IMG/VR virus record: IMGVR_UViG_3300020118_000197
Coordinates: 1-26,656 of that record
Length of the DNA: 26,656 nt
Source of the DNA: a virus
Reading direction: 5' to 3' (one strand)
Every line of letters begins with the position of its first letter. Position 1 is the stretch's first letter. The translations under genes and the position numbers were made by a program. Below, in pieces: positions 4,228 to 26,351 of the stretch. The notes below the pieces were generated by a model. The model saw only the letters and a list, made by a program, of their open reading frames with translations, was not told where the DNA came from and searched no databases.

Positions 4228-5616
4228 ATGACGAATCCGCTGACCGTTCCGCCGCCCGACTGGGTGAGGCTCCGCCATGCGGATGAGCCGTCGCTTCGTC
4301 AGCAGCTTCCCGGCTTCTCGACGCCTACCGAATCGGCGAACGTCCTCCTCAACAAGCAGATCGCGACGCTGAACCGGGCTGGCTCGGGACCAGGGAATCC
4401 CATCCTTTCCGGGCTCGGGGTCACGATCCAATACGCCCTCTCGCGCGGCGAGCGCATCACGGGGCTCTTCATCTTCCAGGATCCCGGGGCTCTGGGGATC
4501 AGCCAGCTTCCCGCGGCGTCCCTGAATGCCCTGCTGCTCACCTACAACTTCAGGGCCGGGAGCGGCCTCACCAAGGCGGGCTCCCCGCTGACCGGCGCGA
4601 AGAAGAACATGCTCCGGATCTCGAGCGCGACCGGCGGGACGGAGCGGGAATACTGGATCAAGTCCTACGACTCCGACATCGTCACCCTGAACGGCGAAGC
4701 GGGCCTCGACAAGACGACGCTTCTACCCGTGCCGATCACGGTTCAGCAGGTGACGGGGCTCGTCTGGCAGGACGTCCGGGTCGACTTCATGCCCTCCTGG
4801 AACGACGAGTTCCAGGTCCTCCATGCCTCGACCGATGCCGACCGGGAAGCGGGCTTCCGGAAGTCCTACGGCGGCGCGGCCTTCGTTTCGTTCTTCGACA
4901 CCACCCCTGGGACAGAAGGGGTCGGGACGGGGGTCAACCCGATCACCCAGGCCTTCATCTACGAGACCCGGTCGATCCAGGTCGACAACTCGCCCGGGAC
5001 CTACCATATCACCGCCCGCTTCCGGTCCAGGAAAGACTCCTCATACTTCGTCGACATCCCGCTCGTCATCACCGTCACGGCAGCCCCCGCCGGATCGTGC
5101 CTGCCGCCCGTGGACGAGCCCTGCGGGAAAATGCTGCTCCTGAGAGGCACCGCGCTCCCTGCGAACGTCCAGGGCGCTCCTAGCGTGCCTGGAGTGCAGG
5201 ACGTGCTGGGCACCCCGGGCGCGATCCTGACGAAGGATCTCTTCTGGGTCAGCCTTCACGCCTCCATTGTTGGTTCTACCCCGACCCTCCTGGTCCGGAA
5301 ATGGGGTCTCGCGGCCTCCGGGCAGGACTTGAGCGGGGCGAAGGAGATCCAGATCGGGTCCGACCTCGAATACCTGCCCCTCGTCCAGCCTGCGACGTCC
5401 CCGGTCCCCGGGGCGCCGTACCAGCCGCCGAACATGCTGACCCTCTGCTTCGACGTTGCGTCCGAGAAGGTCTTGGGCGTCGCATGGTACACGGTGAGCG
5501 TGAAAGACGGCCATTCCCTGTCCCCGGCCCAGCTATTCGCGGGACCGCAGGCGAGGAGCATCGCGTTGATGCCCGCCGGCGGCCTTGGAGGGACGGATCC
5601 GTGCGTGATCTACTAG
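4228..5616 (+). CDS. large tail-tip/baseplate protein
   Basis: This 462-residue protein begins MTNPLTVPPPDWVRL at ATG 4228, one base after the upstream stop; ATG 4183 in the same frame would overlap the previous gene by 44 nt and is less likely. Residues about 235-290 form a beta-rich stretch ending with an Ig/cadherin-like strand pair (TYHITARFRSRKDSSYF then DIPLVITVTA). The remainder is Pro/Gly-rich beta sequence with several cysteines (SCLPPVDEPCGK). This is typical of virion appendage proteins, but no named family was recognised. Its end overlaps the first glycosyltransferase by 16 nt. Confidence 0.55.
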   Translation: MTNPLTVPPPDWVRLRHADEPSLRQQLPGFSTPTESANVLLNKQIATLNRAGSGPGNPILSGLGVTIQYALSRGERITGLFIFQDPGALGISQLPAASLNALLLTYNFRAGSGLTKAGSPLTGAKKNMLRISSATGGTEREYWIKSYDSDIVTLNGEAGLDKTTLLPVPITVQQVTGLVWQDVRVDFMPSWNDEFQVLHASTDADREAGFRKSYGGAAFVSFFDTTPGTEGVGTGVNPITQAFIYETRSIQVDNSPGTYHITARFRSRKDSSYFVDIPLVITVTAAPAGSCLPPVDEPCGKMLLLRGTALPANVQGAPSVPGVQDVLGTPGAILTKDLFWVSLHASIVGSTPTLLVRKWGLAASGQDLSGAKEIQIGSDLEYLPLVQPATSPVPGAPYQPPNMLTLCFDVASEKVLGVAWYTVSVKDGHSLSPAQLFAGPQARSIALMPAGGLGGTDPCVIY

Positions 5617-6341
5617 TTTCGGTCATCACCAGCACGCACAACCGGCCGCTCTTCATCCGGAAGGCGATCGATCTCTTCGCGGCTCAAACGTGGCCCCATC
5701 GCGAGATGATCATCATGGACGACGGCCCTGCCGGGATTGTCCCGTCGCTCCTGCCTCATGGGGTGCGGCACGTCCGGATCCCGTCCTATACCTGGATCAC
5801 CCACAAGCACCGGATGGCCTTCCCGCTCTGCCAGGGCGAGTTCATGGCCTACTGGGACGACGACGATTTTTACTCCCCCCGGCGGCTCGCGATGCAGGCC
5901 CAGGAACTCATCGACGGCCGCGCGGACGTGGTCGGCTTCCATGTGAAGGTGCTGGCGAGCGTTCCGGATCCGGGCTTCTGGAAATGGAGCCGGAAAACGC
6001 TCGACAAGTGGGAACGCGATTCTAAGCCGGGATTCGAAGCGGGGCTTCCATTCCACGACGGCACGGCCATGTGGCGTTCCAGCCTGCTCAACGGCCTCCC
6101 CGAGAGCATTCTTCAGGCGAGCCAGCTGGATCTCATGCGCTGGCTCCGCGTCCGCGGGGCGAGGCTGAAGGAACTCCCGAACGACGGGACCTTCGTCTAC
6201 GTGCGCCATTCCCGGGTCGGCTGGGACTTCGACGTCCGGGATCTGTGCGACCCGGTCGACTGCCCCGCCTGGATCCCGAAGGAAATGCTCGCCTTCTGGG
6301 CCAATCCCGCGCTCTCGGATGAGGGGGTGCGGCATGGGTGA
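5601..6341 (+). CDS. GT-A glycosyltransferase 1 (family 2-like)
   Basis: This 246-residue enzyme probably transfers a sugar from a nucleotide-sugar donor. It starts at GTG 5601 with GGAGGGA 9 nt upstream, inside the end of the preceding tail gene. The N-terminal GT-A signature is clear: strand plus loop VSVITSTHNRP (residues 6-16), DDGP (40-43), and a metal/nucleotide-binding WDDDD (85-89). The C-terminal half has a HDGTAMWR segment shared in position with the HDGSAMYT of the next gene, showing the two are paralogues. It is translationally coupled to its neighbours, which suggests that the acceptor is a virion protein made at the same time. Donor and acceptor are unknown. Confidence 0.8.
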   Translation: MRDLLVSVITSTHNRPLFIRKAIDLFAAQTWPHREMIIMDDGPAGIVPSLLPHGVRHVRIPSYTWITHKHRMAFPLCQGEFMAYWDDDDFYSPRRLAMQAQELIDGRADVVGFHVKVLASVPDPGFWKWSRKTLDKWERDSKPGFEAGLPFHDGTAMWRSSLLNGLPESILQASQLDLMRWLRVRGARLKELPNDGTFVYVRHSRVGWDFDVRDLCDPVDCPAWIPKEMLAFWANPALSDEGVRHG

Positions 6342-7059
6342 CCCCTTGGTGACCTGCGTCTGCCCGACGTGGAACCGGCCTGCGTATCTCCAGCACGCGA
6401 TCAAGCTCTTCCTCGCCCAGACCTATTCACGGGCGGAGCTCGTCATCCTGGACGACAGCGACAAGGACAAGCGCATCCCGAAGAGCCAGCACTCCCGGAT
6501 CCGGCACGTTCAGCTTCCCGAGCGCCTCAGCATCGGGGCGAAACACAACCTGGGCCACAAGCTAGGGCAGGGCGATGTCTTCTGCTACTGGGACGACGAC
6601 GACTGGTTCAACCCGCGCCGGCTGATCCGTCAGCTGGAGCCCATCATCCTCAAGACCGCCGAGCTCGTCGGCTTCCGGCGGAATTACATCATGACCACGG
6701 GCCCCGCAGGGGGCTGGTGGAAGGCCCGGGAACTGGCGATCGCTCCCGAACTCTGGATCGGAAACGGGGCGATGAACCTCAAGGTCTATATGCACGACGG
6801 AAGCGCGATGTATACCCGCGCGGCCGCCGAGCGGTCCAAGCCTCACCCCGACCAGACCATGAACGAGAAGGTCGGATTCCTGAATGGCCTGGTCGAAACG
6901 AAGACCGTTTCGAAGACGATCCCGAACGACGACCTCATGGTCTATGTGCGGCACGGCCGCAATACCTGGAAGTACAACGAGGCTATGGTCCACGCGCCGG
7001 TCGGAATCCCCAGCTGGTTCCCGCGCTCCGAGCTCGACTTCTATCGGAGGGCCGCATGA
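6334..7059 (+). CDS. GT-A glycosyltransferase 2 (family 2-like, paralogue of the preceding gene)
   Basis: This 241-residue protein starts at ATG 6334, overlapping the previous stop by 8 nt, with GAGGGGG upstream. GT-A motifs are VTCVCPTWNRP (6-16), LDDSD (39-43) and YWDDDD (85-90). The C-terminus (NDDLMVYVRHGRNTWKY) parallels NDGTFVYVRHSRVGWDF of glycosyltransferase 1. The stop TGA is embedded in the ATGA start of the hub-like gene, so the enzyme is locked into the baseplate translation unit. The DDDD motif is intact and it is probably active. Donor and acceptor are unknown. Confidence 0.8.
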   Translation: MGDPLVTCVCPTWNRPAYLQHAIKLFLAQTYSRAELVILDDSDKDKRIPKSQHSRIRHVQLPERLSIGAKHNLGHKLGQGDVFCYWDDDDWFNPRRLIRQLEPIILKTAELVGFRRNYIMTTGPAGGWWKARELAIAPELWIGNGAMNLKVYMHDGSAMYTRAAAERSKPHPDQTMNEKVGFLNGLVETKTVSKTIPNDDLMVYVRHGRNTWKYNEAMVHAPVGIPSWFPRSELDFYRRAA

Positions 7060-8783
7060 GCCGGAACCTTCTGGCCGGGTCCAAGCTGAACGAGATCGCG
7101 GGCTCGCCGAGACGCTGGCCGGACTTCCAGGTCCTCGTCTGGAATCCGCTTCGCGTGGATATCGCGGACGTGGCGACGGGGCTCGTCCAGGACGCGCCGC
7201 TCGATCTCTCCCCCTACGTCGACCAAGTCCAGATCCAGGAGAACATCGGCTACGAGAACGCGAACGATCCACAGCCGACGAAGGCCTCCTTCACCTTCAA
7301 GCGGAATCTGCGCCTAGAGACGATGCGTCGCGGGCTGATCGAGGATGGGGTGATCGTCCGGATCCTGGTCGGCGATCGCCGCGTCGCGCGGCAGGACTGG
7401 ACCCCGATCTTTACCGGCACGTTCCGCGGCCGCCCGGGAGACGATCCCGGGACTCGGGCGACCCTAACCGAAGGCCTCAGCGCCAATGCCTACGGGCGCG
7501 AAGAGCGGTTCATGAGCATGGCTCCCATTACGACGGACCCCTTCCCCGGTCCGGTCGACGTCGGCAGCATGGCCTACGAGATCGCCCGAGGGAAGATGGG
7601 GCTCGGGCAGAATGAGATCCTCTTCGGGGCGATGGGGTTCCAGTCGCTCGCCGTGACTAATCAGATCGTGACCTTGCCTCCTCTCCAGGCGCTCTACGAA
7701 TGCATGTTCCCGGCCGGGAAGAAGCCGAAGTTCGACGGAATGGGCTGCCTGACCGCCGTCGACGTCAACCTCGACAAGCCGGCCGTCCGGATCTATTCCA
7801 ATCTCTCCTCGGTGATCCAGAGCGTCATCGCGACGCCGAACGACGTCGAGGTCAACAATCAGGTCATCCTGCGCGGTCTCGACCACGTTATGACGAAGAC
7901 CGTCCAGGATCCCCAGCTGCTCGTCACGGTCAACCCGACGACCGGGTTCTTCGACAGCAGCTTCGACCAGGACGAGTATTACTCCCAGGACCATACCCAG
8001 CGGGCCCAGGACACCTACGTCAACACCAAGAAGAAGATCAAATGGGCGAAGGCGAAATGGAGGGAGGTCGACGAGTTCCACGGCCGCCTTTCGATCGACA
8101 CCCATTATCTCGCCGCCGTCCGTGAAACGATCTTCGGCGTTTACCTTGCGGCCCAGCTGACGGTCGCGGCGATCGATGAGGTTTTGCAGTCCGACAGCGC
8201 GACCGGCATCGTGGGCGCGGTCGTCACGACTCTCTTCTCAAGCGAGGTCGAAATCCTGGTCGCGCTTCGCTTCGCCCTCCAGACGACTTCCCAGGTCGCG
8301 CTCGCCGCGCTCCTCTGGGCGATGAACTTCATCGGGAACGGCGAGTACGAGGTCTGGGGCTCGCCCTTCGAATTCGTCTATCAGGAGCTCGTCAGCGACA
8401 ACCGGCTGGTCGGTCTCGACGCTTCAGAGCTCAGGGCATACGACTACCGGAACGACTTCATCAGTCAGATGTCGGATCTCGACACGATCGGGCGCGAGCG
8501 CCTGCGCCGCGAGATGGTGAAGAACCAGACCTACGAGATCAAGCTGCTGGACGACCCCCTCCTCGAGGTCGACGACGTTATCGAGATCGACGGCTCGCGC
8601 TACTACGTGACCGCGACGGATCGGACGCTCCAGCGCGGCGGAGACGGAATCCTGACCCTCACGACCTGGAAGATCTTCGATCCGATGGGCGGCTATGCCC
8701 AGCTGCTTTCGGTTCCCACGGGAGTCGACGTCCCCCTGGGATACGGACTCGATTATGGTTCCTACTACGGAATGGGGCTCTAA
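7056..8783 (+). CDS. baseplate/tail hub-like protein
   Basis: The 575-residue protein starts at ATG 7056 (ATGA overlap with the glycosyltransferase). The N-terminal 130 residues look like a tail-hub domain: a helical entry, then PTKASFTFKRN, DGVIVRILVGDRR and WTPIFTGTFRGRPGDDPG, the pattern of beta-barrel hub proteins in which a local coordinate 'measure' is transformed. The C-terminus reads LLEVDDVIEIDGSRYYVTAT, then LQRGGDGILTLTTWKI, the ending found in many phage hub/minor tail proteins. A hydrophobic helical insert lies at about residues 350-430. The hub would close the tail tube and contact fibres and ejection machinery. Confidence 0.6.
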   Translation: MSRNLLAGSKLNEIAGSPRRWPDFQVLVWNPLRVDIADVATGLVQDAPLDLSPYVDQVQIQENIGYENANDPQPTKASFTFKRNLRLETMRRGLIEDGVIVRILVGDRRVARQDWTPIFTGTFRGRPGDDPGTRATLTEGLSANAYGREERFMSMAPITTDPFPGPVDVGSMAYEIARGKMGLGQNEILFGAMGFQSLAVTNQIVTLPPLQALYECMFPAGKKPKFDGMGCLTAVDVNLDKPAVRIYSNLSSVIQSVIATPNDVEVNNQVILRGLDHVMTKTVQDPQLLVTVNPTTGFFDSSFDQDEYYSQDHTQRAQDTYVNTKKKIKWAKAKWREVDEFHGRLSIDTHYLAAVRETIFGVYLAAQLTVAAIDEVLQSDSATGIVGAVVTTLFSSEVEILVALRFALQTTSQVALAALLWAMNFIGNGEYEVWGSPFEFVYQELVSDNRLVGLDASELRAYDYRNDFISQMSDLDTIGRERLRREMVKNQTYEIKLLDDPLLEVDDVIEIDGSRYYVTATDRTLQRGGDGILTLTTWKIFDPMGGYAQLLSVPTGVDVPLGYGLDYGSYYGMGL

Positions 8784-9674: not shown

Positions 9675-10287
9675 TTTCCAACTCCTAAGGATCGTCAAGG
9701 TCTACTCGCTCGACGACCTTCGCAGCATTTCGGCGAAGGCCGCTCCGAGTCTGGAGGCGATCCTCTTCCCCTCCAAGCGCCGCTATCTGTTCAATCCCGC
9801 GAGCCGAGCGGACGACGACGGCGACAAGGTCATCGCGCCTGTTTCCCAGGTGACGGAATGCTGTCAGGATCAAGGTCGCTGGGAGGTCGAGGCATTTTCC
9901 AGCCCTTCAAGCGGAACCGCGAAGATCCTGGAAGCTCAGGACACCGCAGGCAACTCGGGAGCAGGCGGAGCCTATATCACGGATGCCACGATCAGCTTCA
10001 CCCTGACGGATGAAAAGGACGTCGACGTCATCGCCTCGGGGACTGCGAATATTGATTTCGCCCTGCGTACAAGCGCGGCCCTTGGGATTGAAATCGACGG
10101 AGTCCAGTTTCCTGGGACGACGGCATCGTCTTCGACGCTCGGCTCGGGAATGATCACCCCCACCGTCGCGCAAAAATTCGTCCATCTCGGGATAGGCCCC
10201 CACACGATCAAGCTGTTTGGGGGTGGATCCGTCGGGCTTATTTCCGACGCCTCCAGGCCCACGCGCTTGAGGGTGATCCTCTTATGA
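9664..10287 (+). CDS. tail/fibre-associated protein B
   Basis: This 207-residue protein starts at ATG 9664 within the end of the previous gene (11-nt overlap). The longer open frame back to 9433 would lie entirely over the fibre gene and is rejected. It is beta-rich (ITDATISFTLTDEKDVDVIA; FVHLGIGPHTIKLFGGGS), resembling a small jelly-roll or carbohydrate-binding-like domain, but no family was recognised. It overlaps the following ATG by 4 nt. Confidence 0.5.
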   Translation: MPSNFQLLRIVKVYSLDDLRSISAKAAPSLEAILFPSKRRYLFNPASRADDDGDKVIAPVSQVTECCQDQGRWEVEAFSSPSSGTAKILEAQDTAGNSGAGGAYITDATISFTLTDEKDVDVIASGTANIDFALRTSAALGIEIDGVQFPGTTASSSTLGSGMITPTVAQKFVHLGIGPHTIKLFGGGSVGLISDASRPTRLRVILL

Positions 10288-10958
10288 AGAACGTAGCCCT
10301 CGCCGCGCGTCGGGAGCTCGAGGCCCACCGGGTCTTCGATACCGGCGTCACCGCGAGCCGTCCCGCCTACAAGGCGATCGACACGCTTGGAAATCAGGAT
10401 TGGGTCGTCGATGTCTATGCGGGGCCGCTTGATCCTTCGGGCCTGAACATCATCCGCGACGTCCTGATCGCCCCCTATGCCCGTCAGCTGGTGACCGATG
10501 CGAGGCAGCCGATCCTCATGGAGCGGTCGCTCCAGGGGAAATATACCGTCGTCGGCCGCGCGAAGGTCATGCCTTCCGGGGCTCAGATGCCGGAAGGCTC
10601 GATCCTCGAGCCGACCTATAACCGCATCGAATACAACCTGGCCGACCTTGGCCTCATGTTCGTGGCCGATCTCGACGTCGATGCGGAGGCGTGGGGAGAC
10701 AAGAACTGGGGCGAACAGGGGAAGCCGTGGCAGCAGCTTCAGTTCACCGATGCTTTCGGAAACATCGTCGTCGGAGACGGGATCGATCCGGCCAGCATTC
10801 CGCCGGCGCTCGTTCCCGCGCCCATCTCCACGACCACGACCAGGCACGTCATCTTGACCTCGAAGACCTGGGGCCCCGGCGGAGATCCCCACGCGCTCGC
10901 CTGGGGCACCGACGAATGGGGCGCGGCGGATCAGGTTCTCGTTGAATTGGAAAGCTAA
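10284..10958 (+). CDS. tail/fibre-associated protein C
   Basis: This 224-residue protein starts at ATG 10284 (ATGA-type overlap of 4 nt). Its N-terminal two thirds are mixed alpha/beta, with a Trp/Gly-rich segment (EAWGDKNWGEQGKPWQQL). The C-terminus repeats Trp-Gly turns (SKTWGPGGDPHALAWGTDEW). It is structural by position; no family was recognised. Confidence 0.5.
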   Translation: MKNVALAARRELEAHRVFDTGVTASRPAYKAIDTLGNQDWVVDVYAGPLDPSGLNIIRDVLIAPYARQLVTDARQPILMERSLQGKYTVVGRAKVMPSGAQMPEGSILEPTYNRIEYNLADLGLMFVADLDVDAEAWGDKNWGEQGKPWQQLQFTDAFGNIVVGDGIDPASIPPALVPAPISTTTTRHVILTSKTWGPGGDPHALAWGTDEWGAADQVLVELES

Positions 10959-10969
10959 AGGAGGCGATC

Positions 10970-11998
10970 GTGACTAACCCCGTTGTCCTGGCAGACATCC
11001 CGGTCGGAACCAAGCAGTACCCGGCGATCGTGAAAGCGAACTTCGACGCGCTGGCGTCAGCCCTGAATGACGCGATGGCTCAGATCCTCGCGGTCTCGGG
11101 AGACGGCGCTCAGCTGCTCCTCGACACCTACGACCGGAACGGTATCGTCGGAACGACGAGCTACCGGCTCGACCTCCCGAATTACAGCGGCGGCTCCCAG
11201 ATCGTGATCGGCCGCCGTCCGGTCTTCGACGCGGGGAAGCAGGAGCAGAACGTCTCCATCGCCTTCGGGACCTATGGCGGCCAGCGGACGCGCGTGACCA
11301 GGACCGGGGACGTCACCCTCGACGCCGCCTCGATCGTGAGCGGCCTTCCGAAGACGATCTACGTCGGAATCATCTCGGACGGGACGCCCCAGCTGTTCGA
11401 GGACAACTCTAATCCGGAGGTCCTCTACATCTATTCCCTGTGCTGGGATGGCTTCTCGCTCACCTGCCCGAAGTACGAAGCGCCAATCCTGCTGTCCGAT
11501 GAGACGCTTCAGGACATCGCAGGAGCACCGTCGACCGAACGGGTTTTCGATTCCCAAACCGATTGGCTCAGCCATACCCAGAGCCGGTCGACCATCGTGC
11601 TTGCGGGCGACGGCGGCGTCAGCGAGACGGGACTGAACATCTCCAAGAGGGTCATCGGCGGCTTCATCGCGACTGGGCCCGGAGATGCCGAGGGCTTCTT
11701 CTGCCCAGCCGGCACGGACAAGCTGCTCACCCTCGAGCTCTGGGACGATCAGGACCGCCGCTGGAACCTGCAGCCGATCCAGATCGATTGCTCTGCGACC
11801 CCGACACGGTTCTTCTTCACCATCGATCCCGCCCTCGGGGATGACCGCTTCGTCACGGACGTCGCCGAGTTCCGCCTGGTCCGGACGAGCGTCGGCGGCG
11901 ACATCGCATCCGCTCGCGGCTTCACCTGGGGCTTGCATACCATCCCGGTCCTCGGGACGCCGATCCCGAAGAACGACGCGAAGGTCCGCGTGTTCTAG
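10970..11998 (+). CDS. tail fibre or receptor-binding-like protein D
   Basis: This 342-residue protein has a perfect ribosome binding site (AAAGGAGGCGATC) before GTG 10970, so it is probably well expressed and partly uncoupled from the upstream genes. It opens with a fibre-like helical attachment segment (KANFDALASALNDAMAQI), followed by beta-rich domains (LITVTRTG-like strands, GGFIATGPGDAEGFFCPAG, then LLTLELWDDQDRRWN). The last gene of the tail run is often the fibre or receptor-binding protein, which supports the inference. Confidence 0.5.
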   Translation: MTNPVVLADIPVGTKQYPAIVKANFDALASALNDAMAQILAVSGDGAQLLLDTYDRNGIVGTTSYRLDLPNYSGGSQIVIGRRPVFDAGKQEQNVSIAFGTYGGQRTRVTRTGDVTLDAASIVSGLPKTIYVGIISDGTPQLFEDNSNPEVLYIYSLCWDGFSLTCPKYEAPILLSDETLQDIAGAPSTERVFDSQTDWLSHTQSRSTIVLAGDGGVSETGLNISKRVIGGFIATGPGDAEGFFCPAGTDKLLTLELWDDQDRRWNLQPIQIDCSATPTRFFFTIDPALGDDRFVTDVAEFRLVRTSVGGDIASARGFTWGLHTIPVLGTPIPKNDAKVRVF

Positions 11999-12026: not shown

Positions 12027-12494
12027 ATGGGCGAAGAGATAGCCGACCTGCTCAGGCGGGTCTCTGGGCAGTTGGACGGTGTAGAGCGTGTTCTCGGCAA
12101 CATGGATAAAGACCATCGGGAACTCCGGGCCAAATATACGGAACTCCTTACTCGTGTCGCCGTGCTGGAACGGGACGAAGTCTGGACGGGCAAGGAGCGC
12201 CGCAAGGTTGACCAGCGCCTCGGCACCGGAGATCACACCTTCAAACGGATCGAGGCGAAGGCTGGCGCCGCGTGGGACTTGGCCGAAGACGCCCTCGAGC
12301 TCGCGCAAGAGCTCAAGAAGCTCGTAGAGAACCTGCCCCAGAAAGAAACGGGCATTCGGCATCGCGTGAAGAAGCTCGCCCTCGAGGCGGCCGCGCCTGT
12401 CATTGCAGTCCTGCTCCTGCAGATCCTCTATCACGTTCTCATGTTCGGGCCGAAGATCGCGGCGCTGATGAAGGCCGCTGAAGGGGTGCATTAA
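12027..12494 (+). CDS. coiled-coil protein with C-terminal membrane anchor
   Basis: This 155-residue protein starts at ATG 12027 after GAGGAGGA. Residues 5-60 have heptad-like Leu/Val spacing (ADLLRRVSGQLDGVERVLG; ELLTRVAVLE), and a second charged helix spans about 70-105. A single hydrophobic segment, about residues 117-140 (APVIAVLLLQILYHVLMF), near the C-terminus would anchor it with the coiled coil facing the cytoplasm. Its stop overlaps the receiver-domain gene as TAATG, so the two are translationally coupled and may act together. An unusual holin-associated or spanin-like role is possible but not supported by a motif. Confidence 0.6.
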   Translation: MGEEIADLLRRVSGQLDGVERVLGNMDKDHRELRAKYTELLTRVAVLERDEVWTGKERRKVDQRLGTGDHTFKRIEAKAGAAWDLAEDALELAQELKKLVENLPQKETGIRHRVKKLALEAAAPVIAVLLLQILYHVLMFGPKIAALMKAAEGVH

Positions 12495-12955
12495 TGGCGC
12501 ATCGAGTTTTAGTCGTCGAAGACGACGATAAGCAGCGGCATATCATCTGCCTGATCCTGGCCAACGCGGGCTACGGCACCGTCGAGGCTGTGAGCGTGAA
12601 GACCGCGCTCATGCACCTGGACATCATCGACCTTTCCGCGATCGTGCTAGACCTTCGACTCCCGAACGGTCACGGCCGGAAGGTGGTGGAAGCCCTCATC
12701 GAGAAGAGGGACGACGTTCCTGTCGTCGTCCTGAGCGGCTTTCCAGAGGACGCGCCGACCGGATTCCCAGTAACCGCGGTCGTCGATAAGATCCTCGATC
12801 GCCGAGCCAAGCCCCAGGAGGGCGAGAACTTCGAACATCCCACCTTTCGAAGCAGGCTGCTCCATGCCGTCGCCGATGCCAGGACGACGTCGGACGCGAT
12901 CAAGTCCCTGAGATCCTCGACGCGAAAGCTCGAGAAGAGACTTCCACCGAACTAA
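12494..12955 (+). CDS. stand-alone CheY-like response regulator receiver protein
   Basis: This 153-residue protein has an intact receiver domain: acidic pocket E9-D10-D11 (VLVVEDDD), phospho-acceptor D53 in IVLDLRLPNG, switch Ser81 in VVVLSG, and the conserved Lys99 (VDKIL, although the usual Pro after Lys is missing). About 50 residues follow the receiver core, Arg/Lys/Ser-rich and probably helical, with no recognisable DNA-binding or enzymatic output domain. Phosphotransfer from a host histidine kinase would be needed for signalling. TAATG overlap couples it to the membrane coiled-coil gene. Receiver proteins are very unusual in a phage late operon. Confidence 0.85.
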   Translation: MAHRVLVVEDDDKQRHIICLILANAGYGTVEAVSVKTALMHLDIIDLSAIVLDLRLPNGHGRKVVEALIEKRDDVPVVVLSGFPEDAPTGFPVTAVVDKILDRRAKPQEGENFEHPTFRSRLLHAVADARTTSDAIKSLRSSTRKLEKRLPPN

Positions 12956-12994
12956 TTGTCTGGTTTTTGTTTTTTTGGAGAGAGGAGGCGCATC

Positions 12995-13618
12995 ATGGTC
13001 GACGTACTGGTGAAGTTCGAGCCGTTCATCCTGAAGCTGCTGGTGGGGGTCCTGGGGACCTTCTTCGGCTATCTAAACAAGAAGTACGAGCTGGGCATAG
13101 ATCCCATCGGGATCGCCACGACGACGGGGACGATCATCCTCGGCATCGCGATCCACTACGCCGCGAAGGACCACGGCGTCAGCGCCGCCAAGGCGGCCAA
13201 TCCGCCGGCGGATGCAGGAGCGGGGCCCGGAGCGGGTGCCGGGGCCGTAAATGCGGCAGCCGCGTTCCTGATCGGCTTCCTGGCCCTCGGAGCCCTGGCC
13301 GGCTGCAGCGCGATCGACAAGGCCACGCTCCAGGAGTTCCAGTCGGGCGAGGCCCTGATCCTCAAGGACATGGCGATCTACGTGGCGGCCGACGTCGCCG
13401 CCGGGAAGATGCCCGCGATCTCGCAGTCGGCCATCGACGCTCATCTGGCGAAGATCAACGCCGATCCGCGGAGCGTGGATCCCGCCGAAGAACAGGCGAT
13501 CATGTCCCAGTTCATCGCCTACCTCGCGGCGGATCCGAAGATCTCCAGCGGAACGATGAAGGCCTGGGGAGGCGAGGTCCATGCCCATATGGACCTCTTT
13601 ACGTCCGTTCATAGGTAA
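12995..13618 (+). CDS. membrane protein with holin-like N-terminus and internal lipobox
   Basis: This 207-residue protein starts at ATG 12995, set by GAGAGGAGGCG; the open frame back to TTG 12956 lacks a binding site. Two hydrophobic segments lie at about residues 10-27 (FILKLLVGVLGTFFGYL) and 38-56 (GIATTTGTIILGIAIHYAA). A Pro/Gly/Ala linker spans 68-88. A third hydrophobic stretch ends in a textbook lipobox, LAGC, with Cys at 104 (FLIGFLALGALAGC). A 103-residue soluble helical domain follows. This looks like a small holin-like protein fused to a lipoprotein. A lysis role is inferred from position and topology only. Confidence 0.6.
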   Translation: MVDVLVKFEPFILKLLVGVLGTFFGYLNKKYELGIDPIGIATTTGTIILGIAIHYAAKDHGVSAAKAANPPADAGAGPGAGAGAVNAAAAFLIGFLALGALAGCSAIDKATLQEFQSGEALILKDMAIYVAADVAAGKMPAISQSAIDAHLAKINADPRSVDPAEEQAIMSQFIAYLAADPKISSGTMKAWGGEVHAHMDLFTSVHR

Positions 13619-14137: not shown

Positions 14138-14752
14138 ATGATTACGCTGAGCATAATTGTTCCGACCTGCGGCCGTCCGACTCTAGCCAGGACGCTCTCG
14201 AGTATTCTGGCGGCTGGGATATCCGAAGTCGATGAGGTATTAATCGTTGGTGACGGCCCTCAACCTGAAGCTCGGCGAATCATGACTGAGTTCCAGGGAT
14301 CTACATCACGTCTCATATATCTGGAGAGCATTCCCTACCATGAAGGCGCGGGCGACCATCAGCGTAACTTCGCGATTCCTTTCGCAAAGGGTACGCATCT
14401 CCAGTTTATCGATGATGACGATGCCTTCCGTCCCGGTGCAATCAATCTGATCAGAAAGGCAGCAGAGAAAGCGCCCGGAAAGATCCTGATGTTCCGGATG
14501 CAGTCCATGAATCCTGAGCGTCATGCATGGGCGCCGATCCGATGGGTTGACTATAAAGACCCCTTCGTCGGCAATATTGGCACGCCGATGTTCACCGTTC
14601 CCAATCAGCCTCAATGGCTTGGGGTTTGGAAGGAACGAGGCGAACGGCAGGGAGGCGGGGACTTCAAGTTCATGGAGAGCACACTCGCGAAATGGCCTGG
14701 AGGGAAGGCCTCGATTGTCTGGTATGAGGACGTTACCGTCGACGTCTATTGA
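14138..14752 (+). CDS. GT-A glycosyltransferase 3 (family 2)
   Basis: This 204-residue enzyme has a classic GT2 opening (LSIIVPTCGRPTLARTLSSI, residues 4-23), VGDGPQ (37-42) and the nucleotide/metal site FIDDDD (90-95). It is not close to the two tail glycosyltransferases: its motifs and C-terminus differ, and its DNA is visibly richer in A+T. It has its own promoter and an upstream terminator, so it is a separate accessory gene that could be expressed in the lysogen, for instance to alter host surface sugars. Its end overlaps the convergent minus-strand gene by 7 nt. Donor and acceptor are unknown. Confidence 0.8.
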   Translation: MITLSIIVPTCGRPTLARTLSSILAAGISEVDEVLIVGDGPQPEARRIMTEFQGSTSRLIYLESIPYHEGAGDHQRNFAIPFAKGTHLQFIDDDDAFRPGAINLIRKAAEKAPGKILMFRMQSMNPERHAWAPIRWVDYKDPFVGNIGTPMFTVPNQPQWLGVWKERGERQGGGDFKFMESTLAKWPGGKASIVWYEDVTVDVY

Positions 14753-23467: not shown

Positions 23468-24508
23468 GTGGGCATTCCGCTCAACGAGATCGTCGTTGGC
23501 GACGCGCTGGAGGTTCTCCGGACGTTGCCCGACGAGTGCGTCAATACAGTGGTGACGTCGCCGCCCTACTGGGGCCTGCGCGACTATGGCGTCGAGGGTC
23601 AACTCGGCCTCAAGGCAACGCCCGCCGAATACCTCTGGCGCATGGTCAAGATCTTCAGGCAGGTCCGTCGAGTGCTCCGGAGTGACGGGACTGCCTGGGT
23701 CAATATGGGCGACTGCTATGTCGCCGGCGGCCGCGGGGGCGATACCGGGGCCTCGACCTTGAACGGCGGGACCGAGCACCAGGACGAAAGCAAGAAGGCC
23801 CGCAAAGCCAGCGCCGGCGCCGGTCCTCGCCTCGGCCATCGCTCCAGCTTCCGACGCGATCGGATGGCGCGGCAGGATCATCCGCATAAGTCGGTCCGCG
23901 GGCTGAAGGTGAAAGACCTGGTCGGGATGCCTTGGCGTCTCGCCTTCGCGCTGCAGGCCGATGGCTGGTATCTCCGCTCGGACATCATCTGGGCGAAGCC
24001 GAACCCGATGCCCGAGAGCATTCAAGATCGGCCGACCAAGTCTCACGAATACGTCTTCCTGCTCGCGAAATCACAGAGGTACTACTACGACGCGGACGCG
24101 ATTCGGGAGAAATATGAGGAGGACACCTTCAAGCGAGCCGCCTATGGATGGAGTTCTACCGGAAGCCGGATTCAGAAACACCAACCAGGCGTAGACCAGC
24201 GGAACGAAGTCGGATACGACAAGCTCAACGCGAAGGGCAGGAACAAGCGGACCGTATGGTCCGTTTCCACCTCGCCATTCCCTGACGCTCACTTCGCCAC
24301 ATTCCCCCAGAAGCTCATCGAGCCTTGCATTCTGGCCGGTTGCCCTAGGGGGGGGGTAGTCCTCGATCCGTTCATGGGGGCCGGTACGACGGCCCTCGTT
24401 GCGCTCAAGGCGGGAGTCCAGTTCATCGGAATCGAACTCAATCCGAAATATGCCTCCATGGCGCGAAAGCGGATTGCGCCGGAACTCGCGCAGGGGAGGC
24501 TCGCCTAA
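23468..24508 (+). CDS. DNA methyltransferase, N4-cytosine or N6-adenine (beta class)
   Basis: This 346-residue enzyme starts at GTG 23468 with only moderate AAGAGA upstream. Order of motifs is catalytic TSPPY (30-34) first and the S-adenosylmethionine motif DPFMGAGTT (300-308) near the end, so it is a beta-class amino-methyltransferase. SPPY rather than DPPY favours N4-cytosine, but does not exclude N6-adenine. A basic region of about 60 residues, rich in Arg/His/Gly, sits around residues 95-150 and may recognise the target. It probably masks phage DNA from restriction. TAATG couples it to the Mom-like gene. Confidence 0.9.
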   Translation: MGIPLNEIVVGDALEVLRTLPDECVNTVVTSPPYWGLRDYGVEGQLGLKATPAEYLWRMVKIFRQVRRVLRSDGTAWVNMGDCYVAGGRGGDTGASTLNGGTEHQDESKKARKASAGAGPRLGHRSSFRRDRMARQDHPHKSVRGLKVKDLVGMPWRLAFALQADGWYLRSDIIWAKPNPMPESIQDRPTKSHEYVFLLAKSQRYYYDADAIREKYEEDTFKRAAYGWSSTGSRIQKHQPGVDQRNEVGYDKLNAKGRNKRTVWSVSTSPFPDAHFATFPQKLIEPCILAGCPRGGVVLDPFMGAGTTALVALKAGVQFIGIELNPKYASMARKRIAPELAQGRLA

Positions 24509-24999
24509 TGTTCTCCCTCGCCGAGTTCGACCTGGTTGACGACACCTACGCCGATCATCTGCTCGAAAAGTGGGGGCACTTCCTTGGTGCTCTCAATCGT
24601 CCCTTCGGCCGCCAGTCCTTTGTCCTGTCGATCGAGGGGGAAGCCGCTTCGGTAGCCGTGAGCGCATCGACGGTCGGGATCTCCGCCGGCGGGATTCCCC
24701 GCTTCGAATGCGTCGAACTCGCCCGCCTCTGCACCGCACCAGGGCATAAGGATCTCACGCGCGTCGCTCTTCGGCTCTGGCGTCGACTCGCTCCGATGTG
24801 CTGGAAGCGGTCCTATTGGCCGGTCCGCGCCGTTGTCAGCTACCAGGATCAGACCAGGCACAAGGGCGACATCTATCGCTTCGACGGCTGGAAGAAGGTC
24901 TCAGACGTGAAGGGGTCCACCGGCGGCGGCCATCACTCGACCAAGAAGGACCGCGTCCCGAAGGCGGTCTGGGTCTACGAACTCGGGAGGGTTGCTTAA
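24508..24999 (+). CDS. Mom-like / GNAT-fold DNA-modification protein
   Basis: This 163-residue protein has the Mom/XF1762-type GNAT pattern: a VELARLCTAPGHKDLTRVAL strand-helix, a basic WRRLAPMCWKRSYW segment, then VRAVVSYQDQTRHKGDIYRF and DGWKKV. In phage Mu, Mom converts adenine to a carbamoylmethyl-type adduct that blocks restriction. TAATG overlaps on both sides (24508 and 24999) lock it between two DNA methyltransferases, strongly supporting DNA modification. The actual chemistry and target base are unknown; assignment is by motif inspection. Confidence 0.6.
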   Translation: MFSLAEFDLVDDTYADHLLEKWGHFLGALNRPFGRQSFVLSIEGEAASVAVSASTVGISAGGIPRFECVELARLCTAPGHKDLTRVALRLWRRLAPMCWKRSYWPVRAVVSYQDQTRHKGDIYRFDGWKKVSDVKGSTGGGHHSTKKDRVPKAVWVYELGRVA

Positions 25000-26351
25000 T
25001 GGGCCTCCAGGCCGACTTCGAATTCATCGACCTCTTCGCCGGCTGCGGCGGCGGAACGTCAGGCGCCGTGGAGGCTTGCCAGGAGCGGGGCCTCAGCATG
25101 GACGGGGTCGCGATTAACCACAACCAGCGTGCGATCGAGACCCACTGGGCGAATCATCGCTGGATGCGCCATGAGCGCCAGGACATCCGTGCGATCCAGC
25201 CACTCCGCGTCGTGCCGAGCGGCCGCCGTGACTTCTTCATTGCCGCGCCCGAGTGCAAGGCCTACAGCCCGGCCCGCGGCAACAAACCCTGGAAACCGCA
25301 GTTCAGGACCTCCCCGCGCGAGATCCTCCGCTTCATGAAGGACCTCGACGTCCCGGATGGGCTGATCGAGAACGTGCGCGAGTTCCAGGACTGGGGTCCG
25401 AACGACGAGAACGGAGACCCGATCCCGGCCTTCGAGGGGATCTTTTTCAAGCGCTTCATCGACGCGATCCGGGACTTGGGCTACAACGTCGACTGGCGCG
25501 TCCTGAACGCCGCTGACTATGGCGATGCCACGACGCGCAAGCGGCTCTTCATCCAGTGCAGGCGCGGCTTACCGATCACCTGGCCGAAAGTGACGCACAC
25601 GCCCGACCGCTACAGATCCGCGCGGGAGATCATCGACTGGAGCATTCCAGGGGTTTCCATCTTCAACCGGAAGAATCCCCTCAAGCCGAACACGATCAAG
25701 CGGATCATCGCCGGCCTTAAGAAGCACGGCGGGGATGCCTTCCTCGCGATGTTCTACGGGACGAACGACGTCCGCTCACTGGATCTGCCGGCGCCCACCA
25801 TCACGGCCCAGGGCCAGCACTTCGGTCTCTGTGAGTTCCTGATCGGCCAGCACGGCGGGGCAACGCCTCGGAGCATCGAGGAGCCAACCCCGACGATCTG
25901 CCGCTCAGGCGCGATCTCCTTCATCCAGGCGAAGGGCTTCATCATCCCGACGAACCATGGCGAGGGCGACGAGCGGGCCTACGACCTTGGCGAGCCGATG
26001 CGAACCATCACGGGCGTCGACGCCTGGGGCCTCGTCGAGCCGCTAATCATGGAATATTACGGAAATGGGAATACCCACCCCGTCTCTCATCCCCTCGGCA
26101 CCGTCACGACGCACGACCGCTTCGCCCTGATCGTGGCCACGCCCAAGGGGAAGTTCGGAGTCGACATCCTCTTCCGGATGCTGCAGCCGCATGAGCTCGC
26201 CGCGGCGATGTCCTTCCCGAAGGACTACATCTTCAGCGGCACGCGACGCGACCAGGTCCAGCAGATCGGAAACGCTTGGCCGGTGATGCTGGGGAAGAAC
26301 CTCATCGGACACATGATCGACACGCGGCGAATTCTGCGGAGGGTGGCTTAG
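24999..26351 (+). CDS. C5-cytosine DNA methyltransferase
   Basis: This 450-residue enzyme starts at ATG 24999 in a TAATG overlap. Motifs: I FIDLFAGCGGGTSG (9-22), IV with catalytic Cys86 in APECKAYSPARG, VI ENV (124-126), VIII TTRKRLFIQ (178-186), and X QIGNAWPVML (422-431). The catalytic loop reads PEC rather than the usual PPCQ, as in a subset of phage-associated members. A long target-recognition region lies at about residues 195-380 with repeated PTIT/PTIC/TIT-like segments (LPAPTITAQG; EEPTPTICRSG; EPMRTITGVD). It should methylate cytosine C5 and protect phage DNA. Confidence 0.9.
   Translation: MGLQADFEFIDLFAGCGGGTSGAVEACQERGLSMDGVAINHNQRAIETHWANHRWMRHERQDIRAIQPLRVVPSGRRDFFIAAPECKAYSPARGNKPWKPQFRTSPREILRFMKDLDVPDGLIENVREFQDWGPNDENGDPIPAFEGIFFKRFIDAIRDLGYNVDWRVLNAADYGDATTRKRLFIQCRRGLPITWPKVTHTPDRYRSAREIIDWSIPGVSIFNRKNPLKPNTIKRIIAGLKKHGGDAFLAMFYGTNDVRSLDLPAPTITAQGQHFGLCEFLIGQHGGATPRSIEEPTPTICRSGAISFIQAKGFIIPTNHGEGDERAYDLGEPMRTITGVDAWGLVEPLIMEYYGNGNTHPVSHPLGTVTTHDRFALIVATPKGKFGVDILFRMLQPHELAAAMSFPKDYIFSGTRRDQVQQIGNAWPVMLGKNLIGHMIDTRRILRRVA

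Follow-up and report, generated by a model that had tools for sequence, protein, structure and literature searches.

A phage-encoded stand-alone receiver paired with a membrane-anchored coiled-coil protein: a conserved two-gene module with a possible role in lysis timing

What could a virus do with a complete response-regulator receiver that carries no output domain and is encoded together with a small membrane-anchored protein? This question is raised by a locus in the stretch of DNA analysed here (the window), a linear IMG/VR record of 26,656 bases. A first-pass annotation had described two translationally coupled genes at this locus, and the sequence confirmed both open reading frames as well as the TAATG overlap between them. 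The features on which the analysis rests are the following:

10284..11998, + strand: two genes upstream of the pair, whose synteny with it is kept in two other viral contigs, G001 and G002 (45-47% identity)
12027..12494, + strand: CC, a 155-residue coiled-coil protein with a C-terminal membrane segment, the partner gene of RR, with homologues in G001, G002 and G003
12390..12446, + strand: predicted membrane segment of CC, from hydropathy (residues 122-140), AAPVIAVLLLQILYHVLMF
12480-12486, + strand: Shine-Dalgarno-like sequence GAAGGGG ahead of the RR start
12492..12496, + strand: TAATG stop/start overlap coupling CC to RR, read from the sequence
12494..12955, + strand: RR, a 153-residue stand-alone receiver with E9, D10, D53, S81 and K99
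12791..12838, + strand: 16-residue insertion in the β5-α5 loop of RR (residues 100-115), unique to the window phage
12890..12952, + strand: conserved basic tail at the C-terminus of RR (residues ~133-153), carried by an extended α5 helix
12995..13618, + strand: downstream neighbour, coding for a membrane protein that has hydrophobic stretches and a lipobox-like sequence, GALAGCS

CC and RR are not chance frames, since three further contigs have conserved both of them side by side. The gene at 12995..13618 occupies the same position as the lipoprotein/transmembrane gene that follows RR in G001 and G002, and profile searches returned no family match for its product or for these two counterparts. 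With Pfam and PHROGs, no endolysin, holin or spanin was recognised among the neighbours of the pair in the window, G001 or G002; the window family has the pair in a late position without recognisable lysis genes. That the window might be a host fragment was rejected, as it encodes an integrase and a Sak4-like recombinase and has genes of the tail region that it shares with two 54-kb viral contigs. Other genes of the window were also recorded: three family-2 glycosyltransferase-like genes lie within or near the tail region (5601-7059 and 14138-14752), and related genes occupy the corresponding position in G001 and G002 (in tandem in G002). In addition, two genes with DNA-methyltransferase-like sequence motifs (23468-24508 and 24999-26351) stand on either side of a 163-residue gene that is shared with G002 at 67%.

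The description of RR as a receiver without an output domain was borne out. It matched PF00072 (E=2.1e-11; 44.4 bits, above the gathering cut-off of 30.2), and its matches, all of receiver type, covered residues 4-87, followed by α5 and the basic tail up to residue 153; by profile search, a PhoB/OmpR winged-helix DNA-binding domain was absent from the 153-residue protein. NCBIfam equivalogs matched RR in its receiver part only and far below cut-off, and the cREC model PF20274 did not match it. PADLOC returned only short partial overlaps of RR with larger models (E ~1e-5) and none for CC, and an anti-phage defence system was rejected on these grounds. The AF2 model of RR (pLDDT 76.7, pTM 0.74) showed all five strands of the receiver fold and, at the C-terminus, a long helix (118-149). 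Structure searches, which had been proposed as a way to place the receiver, brought up PhoB (2iyn; Foldseek E=5.6e-7) and the receivers of PleD, DctD, HupR and NtrX (VIA Z 17-18, up to 17.9), several of which have long α5 linkers.

With regard to the active site, the phospho-acceptor D53, S81 and K99 were as first annotated, whereas the acidic pair given as D10/D11 was off by one and is E9/D10. In an alignment of the four family members, E9, D10, D53 and K99 were invariant and position 81 was S or T in all of them. K99 aligned gaplessly to the lysine of the KP motif in G002 and G003, and an arginine placed in this column by one automatic alignment was discarded after that gapless comparison. 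The K-P motif of RR is split (K99...P116) because the 16-residue insertion follows K99; within the insertion region, pLDDT fell below 50 at residues 109-115. The strictest conservation in RR was found around D53 (ALMHLD..DLSAI.LDL.LPNGHG) and in the basic tail.

The C-terminal anchor that had been attributed to CC was likewise recovered as a predicted hydrophobic segment of 19 residues at 122-140 (KD 2.16), after which 15 residues remain. The AF2 model of CC showed three long helices at low confidence (pLDDT 57) and was read for helices alone, and XhlA/holin models in Pfam, PHROGs or NCBIfam did not match the window protein. K/R residues were more numerous on the side of the membrane segment where the coiled coil lies in 15/15 contig partners and in 7/7 isolate partners, with ties in this charge comparison for the L134 fusion (see below) and for the coiled-coil gene near the G009 receiver. 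Partner proteins were anchored at either the C-terminus or the N-terminus, and the K/R excess fell on the same side regardless; by the charge rule, the coiled coil is therefore predicted to be cytoplasmic, on the same side as RR. The hydrophobic segments of the partners in Alteromonas phages V22 and A5 and in G002 were weak (KD 1.2-1.3). A CC profile run against 396 genomes from the phylum of an Acidobacteria bin and 379 from the phylum of Nannocystis gave three weak matches (E ~1e-4), which we read as coiled-coil noise.

Co-occurrence of the two genes in relatives had been set as the main check on the pair, and they were adjacent in every relative found. G001 (54.3 kb), G002 (54.7 kb) and G003 (51.5 kb) are viral contigs with CC and RR next to each other in the same order, so that CC and RR form a conserved two-gene module. 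Translational overlap was intact in 4/4 family members, as TAATG in the window and G002 and as ATGA in G001 and G003, and identity to the window was 53-58% for RR and 26-43% for CC. With four members bearing intact active-site residues, the possibility of a single-genome insertion with an eroded active site was rejected. While most virion genes of G001 and G002 were 75-85% identical, their RR proteins shared 43% and their CC proteins 32%. G003 belongs to a different phage (54% G+C) that had only CC and RR in common with the others, apart from a single sigma-factor-like gene also present in G001; its pair lies upstream of terminase/portal-like genes and outside recognised lysis genes. Both the low RR and CC identity between G001 and G002 and the little that G003 shares beyond the pair indicate that the pair has been exchanged as a unit between phages. 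As for close relatives in public genomes, the genome contig scan returned ordinary receivers only. Near the integrases of G001 (12693-13613) and G002 (48326-49243) we noted related genes with LSPAEKKK...CFV.NW..GLP..AKGGD sequences, which may be planctomycete-like by their domain style and a possible clue to the host.

In order to place this family among other phage receivers, stand-alone receivers in viral contigs were surveyed. The set combined earlier matches with those obtained by scanning for the motif RVL[VL]VED[DHE], and the receivers were mostly about 30-40% identical to the query. Genes were called by a codon-based script, neighbours were scored for a small product combining a coiled coil with one or two membrane segments, and genes of the same loci served as controls. 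Stand-alone receivers adjoined such a gene in 13/23 cases, compared with 15/262 control genes (OR 21, p=2.5e-9), figures in which host-like loci were kept since their exclusion had been decided after seeing the data. When the window family was left out, the values were 9/19 receivers and 14/161 controls (p=8e-5). Thresholds and gene calls were crude and the loci not wholly independent; under every threshold tried, the direction was unchanged (p from 1.5e-6 to 0.045). A tree built from 124 columns divided the phage receivers into about seven groups with weak support. Some IMG/VR contigs, such as L096, L098, L100 and L102, resembled host fragments.

Among the surveyed loci, a 402-kb contig (L134) encoded a single 251-residue protein (6043-6798) composed of a receiver, a coiled coil and a C-terminal transmembrane segment, with a PAS histidine kinase and then a second, Rcp-like receiver downstream. 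This three-gene cluster in a jumbo viral contig (IMGVR 3300027985_000918, 6043-8399) is apparently a complete phage-borne two-component system. A histidine kinase also stood beside the receiver and membrane coiled coil in G005, L132, L144 and L148. In G000 (the window) to G004 and G006 to G009, records that may be incomplete, no kinase ATPase domain exceeded the cut-off. The receiver gene of G009 overlapped an Amidase_2 endolysin gene, and the partner in G004 was the sole one with an XhlA-type match, a weak one to phrog_937 (E=1.5e-4). Clusters of a tail-anchored coiled coil, a receiver and a histidine kinase were recorded in L144 (7446-9922), L148 (7443-9985), L132 (7615-9349) and L113 (13294-15693), those of L144 and L148 just downstream of a tail-sheath-like gene of ~1750 residues.

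Cultured phages with the same architecture were reached through a structural match to Alteromonas phage V22; from the matches of an INPHARED tblastn search, annotated Alteromonas isolates alone were used. The pair was present in seven cultured Alteromonas phages from several unrelated groups, usually after tail-fibre or chaperone genes, and it stood among lysis genes in 6/7. The gene order was a papain-like amidase, CC, RR, an Rz-like spanin overlapping RR (PHROG E 7e-6) and a two-transmembrane protein in V22, and CC, RR, an overlapping Rz-like spanin (E 2.9e-8), a two-transmembrane protein and an annotated endolysin in PT15-A5. In R9Y1, CC and RR preceded a GH108 lysozyme, with 4-base overlaps on both sides, and the annotation of R9Y2 shows the same order. 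R8W and H4/4 had a class II holin, CC, RR and a membrane protein, whereas PB15 had a tail-anchored CC, RR and a peptidase M15 overlapping RR. The separate holin-like genes in R8W, V22 and A5 indicate that CC is not simply the holin. Between R8W and H4/4, dN/dS was 0.16 for RR and 0.28 for CC, and no histidine kinase was found at the family cut-off in the seven Alteromonas phage genomes. The window RR was at most about 29% identical to the Alteromonas phage receivers over a useful length, which makes the Alteromonas pairs analogues in architecture and not members of the window family.

Several further observations concern these records. V19 combined CC with a degenerate receiver without the phospho-Asp; this PT11-V19 receiver (L161, 3998-4450) reads IPASEKG at the lost position, its gene still overlaps that of the membrane partner, and it may work without phosphorylation. 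An 854-residue open frame of phage A5 (W02, OP481051; 55928-56161, minus strand) gave a sub-threshold HATPase match (E 1.5e-4) and is possibly rIIA-like. Many INPHARED records, for example OR846xxx, MT835xxx and CAKLQ, carried ordinary two-component genes in 'phage' entries that resemble bacterial contigs, so that counts of phage response regulators are inflated by them. Stenotrophomonas Bhz63 was discarded as an example, as it carries a full PhoP-like regulator.

Taken together, the pair could well be a split response regulator in which the membrane protein CC serves as the output and lysis timing is coupled to host phosphorelay signals, a reading that we prefer while holding it somewhat short of probable. 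RR would be the phospho-switch and CC, with its cytoplasmic coiled coil, the output partner. As the phages usually lack a kinase, the phosphorylation state of D53 would depend on a host histidine kinase or on acetyl phosphate, and it would in turn alter the binding of RR to CC through the extended α5 helix and the basic tail. CC would then favour lysis or hold it back at the membrane step, in the manner of an antiholin or a holin helper, and lysis timing would thereby follow host physiology. Binding of RR to CC, phosphorylation in vivo, and an effect on lysis together with its direction are what we infer here. Two observations speak for a function that is regulated and late: some phages supply a kinase themselves, and the overlap with genes for endolysins and spanins recurs. 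Timing of lysis at the membrane had been one of several alternatives offered at the outset, and it is favoured among them because this architecture is placed among lysis genes in the cultured phages; since no lysis gene was recognised beside the window pair, for the window family itself the lysis link is one of analogy.

The main rival, which we consider possible but on balance unlikely, is a membrane-tethered kinase decoy, whereby CC would hold RR at the inner membrane and RR would drain or block host histidine kinases, for instance those of envelope stress or motility. Lysis would then not be the target, and the position near lysis genes would simply be where late accessory genes accumulate. 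A complete active site with no phage kinase, an RR without output domain, a membrane partner with a predicted cytosolic coiled coil, and the late position of the window family away from recognisable lysis genes are all in line with such a decoy. However, a decoy has no need of the histidine kinases encoded beside the pair in G005, L132, L134, L144 and L148, and overlap with endolysin or spanin genes recurs across phages of different families.

With lower probability, the pair might belong to a host-recognition or superinfection-exclusion module beside tail fibre genes. A5 gp11 and V22 gp30 have been placed in a shared host-recognition module, suggested for A5, V22 and P24 and exchanged between phages along with the fibres, in which gp29, gp31 and gp32 were of unknown function (PMC10579305). 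This exchange and the usual position of the pair after tail-fibre or chaperone genes speak for it. Against it, the pairs of R8W, R9Y1 and PB15 sit with holin, lysozyme or peptidase genes, those of G003 and G009 lie away from fibres, and the coiled coil is predicted to be cytosolic. Moreover, the region just after the fibres is also a usual site of lysis cassettes.

A role as an accessory regulator of host metabolism appears very improbable, although it follows the published annotations, in which CDS-30 of V22 appears as an auxiliary gene of the CheY-like kind (PMC7289586) and G48 of R8W was named PhoB and interpreted as an adaptation to low phosphate (PMC8228385). No DNA-binding domain was found in the window RR or is visible in the 149-153-residue receivers of V22 and R8W, and this explanation leaves both the dedicated membrane coiled-coil partner and the lysis-gene overlap unaccounted for. 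The PhoB label of R8W gp48 (L159, 4001-4462; annotated 'PhoB, DNA-binding') is probably a misannotation because 153 residues are too short for a receiver plus a winged helix; this annotation has been used in a published ecological argument. Finally, that a captured host receiver came by chance to lie beside an unrelated small gene is scarcely credible, even with receivers common in bacteria and some contigs host-like, given that adjacency greatly exceeds the control level in several receiver groups, and given the natural fusion and the joint transfer.

Lysis timing is usually explained by the accumulation of holin and a few antiholins. More tentatively, unrelated tailed-phage families may have repeatedly recruited receivers as lysis-timing switches that gate holin triggering via a dedicated membrane coiled coil, under host kinases or, in some phages, their own; there would then be a class of lysis control set by phosphorelay signals and not by holin accumulation alone. 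Were receivers such switches in lysis cassettes, phages would read host physiology through host signalling to choose the time of bursting, and the published PhoB, metabolic-gene and host-recognition annotations would need revision. The idea is testable, since the module-bearing phages PB15, R9Y1-3, V22, A5, R8W and H4/4 grow on Alteromonas strains.

Among known systems, CheY, DivK and Spo0F resemble RR in being complete receivers without an output domain that act via a separate protein, with the same fold and active site; RR differs in being phage-borne, in its membrane coiled-coil partner from the same operon and in an α5 helix with a conserved basic tail. The receivers of DctD, NtrX, HupR and PleD are the closest structures and share the long C-terminal helix, which in them leads into an output domain of the same chain, whereas the RR chain ends there. 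On the partner side, XhlA-type phage proteins (PHROG 937 'hemolysin') and antiholins combine a small coiled coil with a single membrane anchor and are found in lysis regions. In contrast to XhlA-type proteins, the window CC has no XhlA match and is paired with a receiver, and the holin-like genes of the isolates are separate.

The nearest phage counterparts, the receivers of Alteromonas V22, A5 and R8W, are stand-alone like that of the window, follow tail fibre genes and lie directly downstream of a small coiled-coil gene; together with that of P24, they were published as metabolism or host-recognition genes with no CC or lysis link drawn. The initial statement that no phage system of this form had been described therefore needs qualification: such receivers had been annotated before (PMC7289586, PMC8228385, PMC10579305), while in the literature searched, largely outside subscription journals, no report tied stand-alone phage receivers to lysis or to a coiled-coil membrane protein. 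Jumbo phages, too, encode receiver folds in the form of cREC domains, but these make up a different, divergent group tied to NAD+/ADP-ribose enzymes and never to two-component systems (PMC7824862). Lastly, RoeA, a PhoB-like regulator of the Yersinia entomophaga lysis cassette with a DNA-binding domain and no phosphorylation domain (PMC10101115), is akin to the pair as a two-component-type regulator tied to a holin/endolysin cassette, and differs in that it acts on transcription, whereas CC and RR would act at the membrane.
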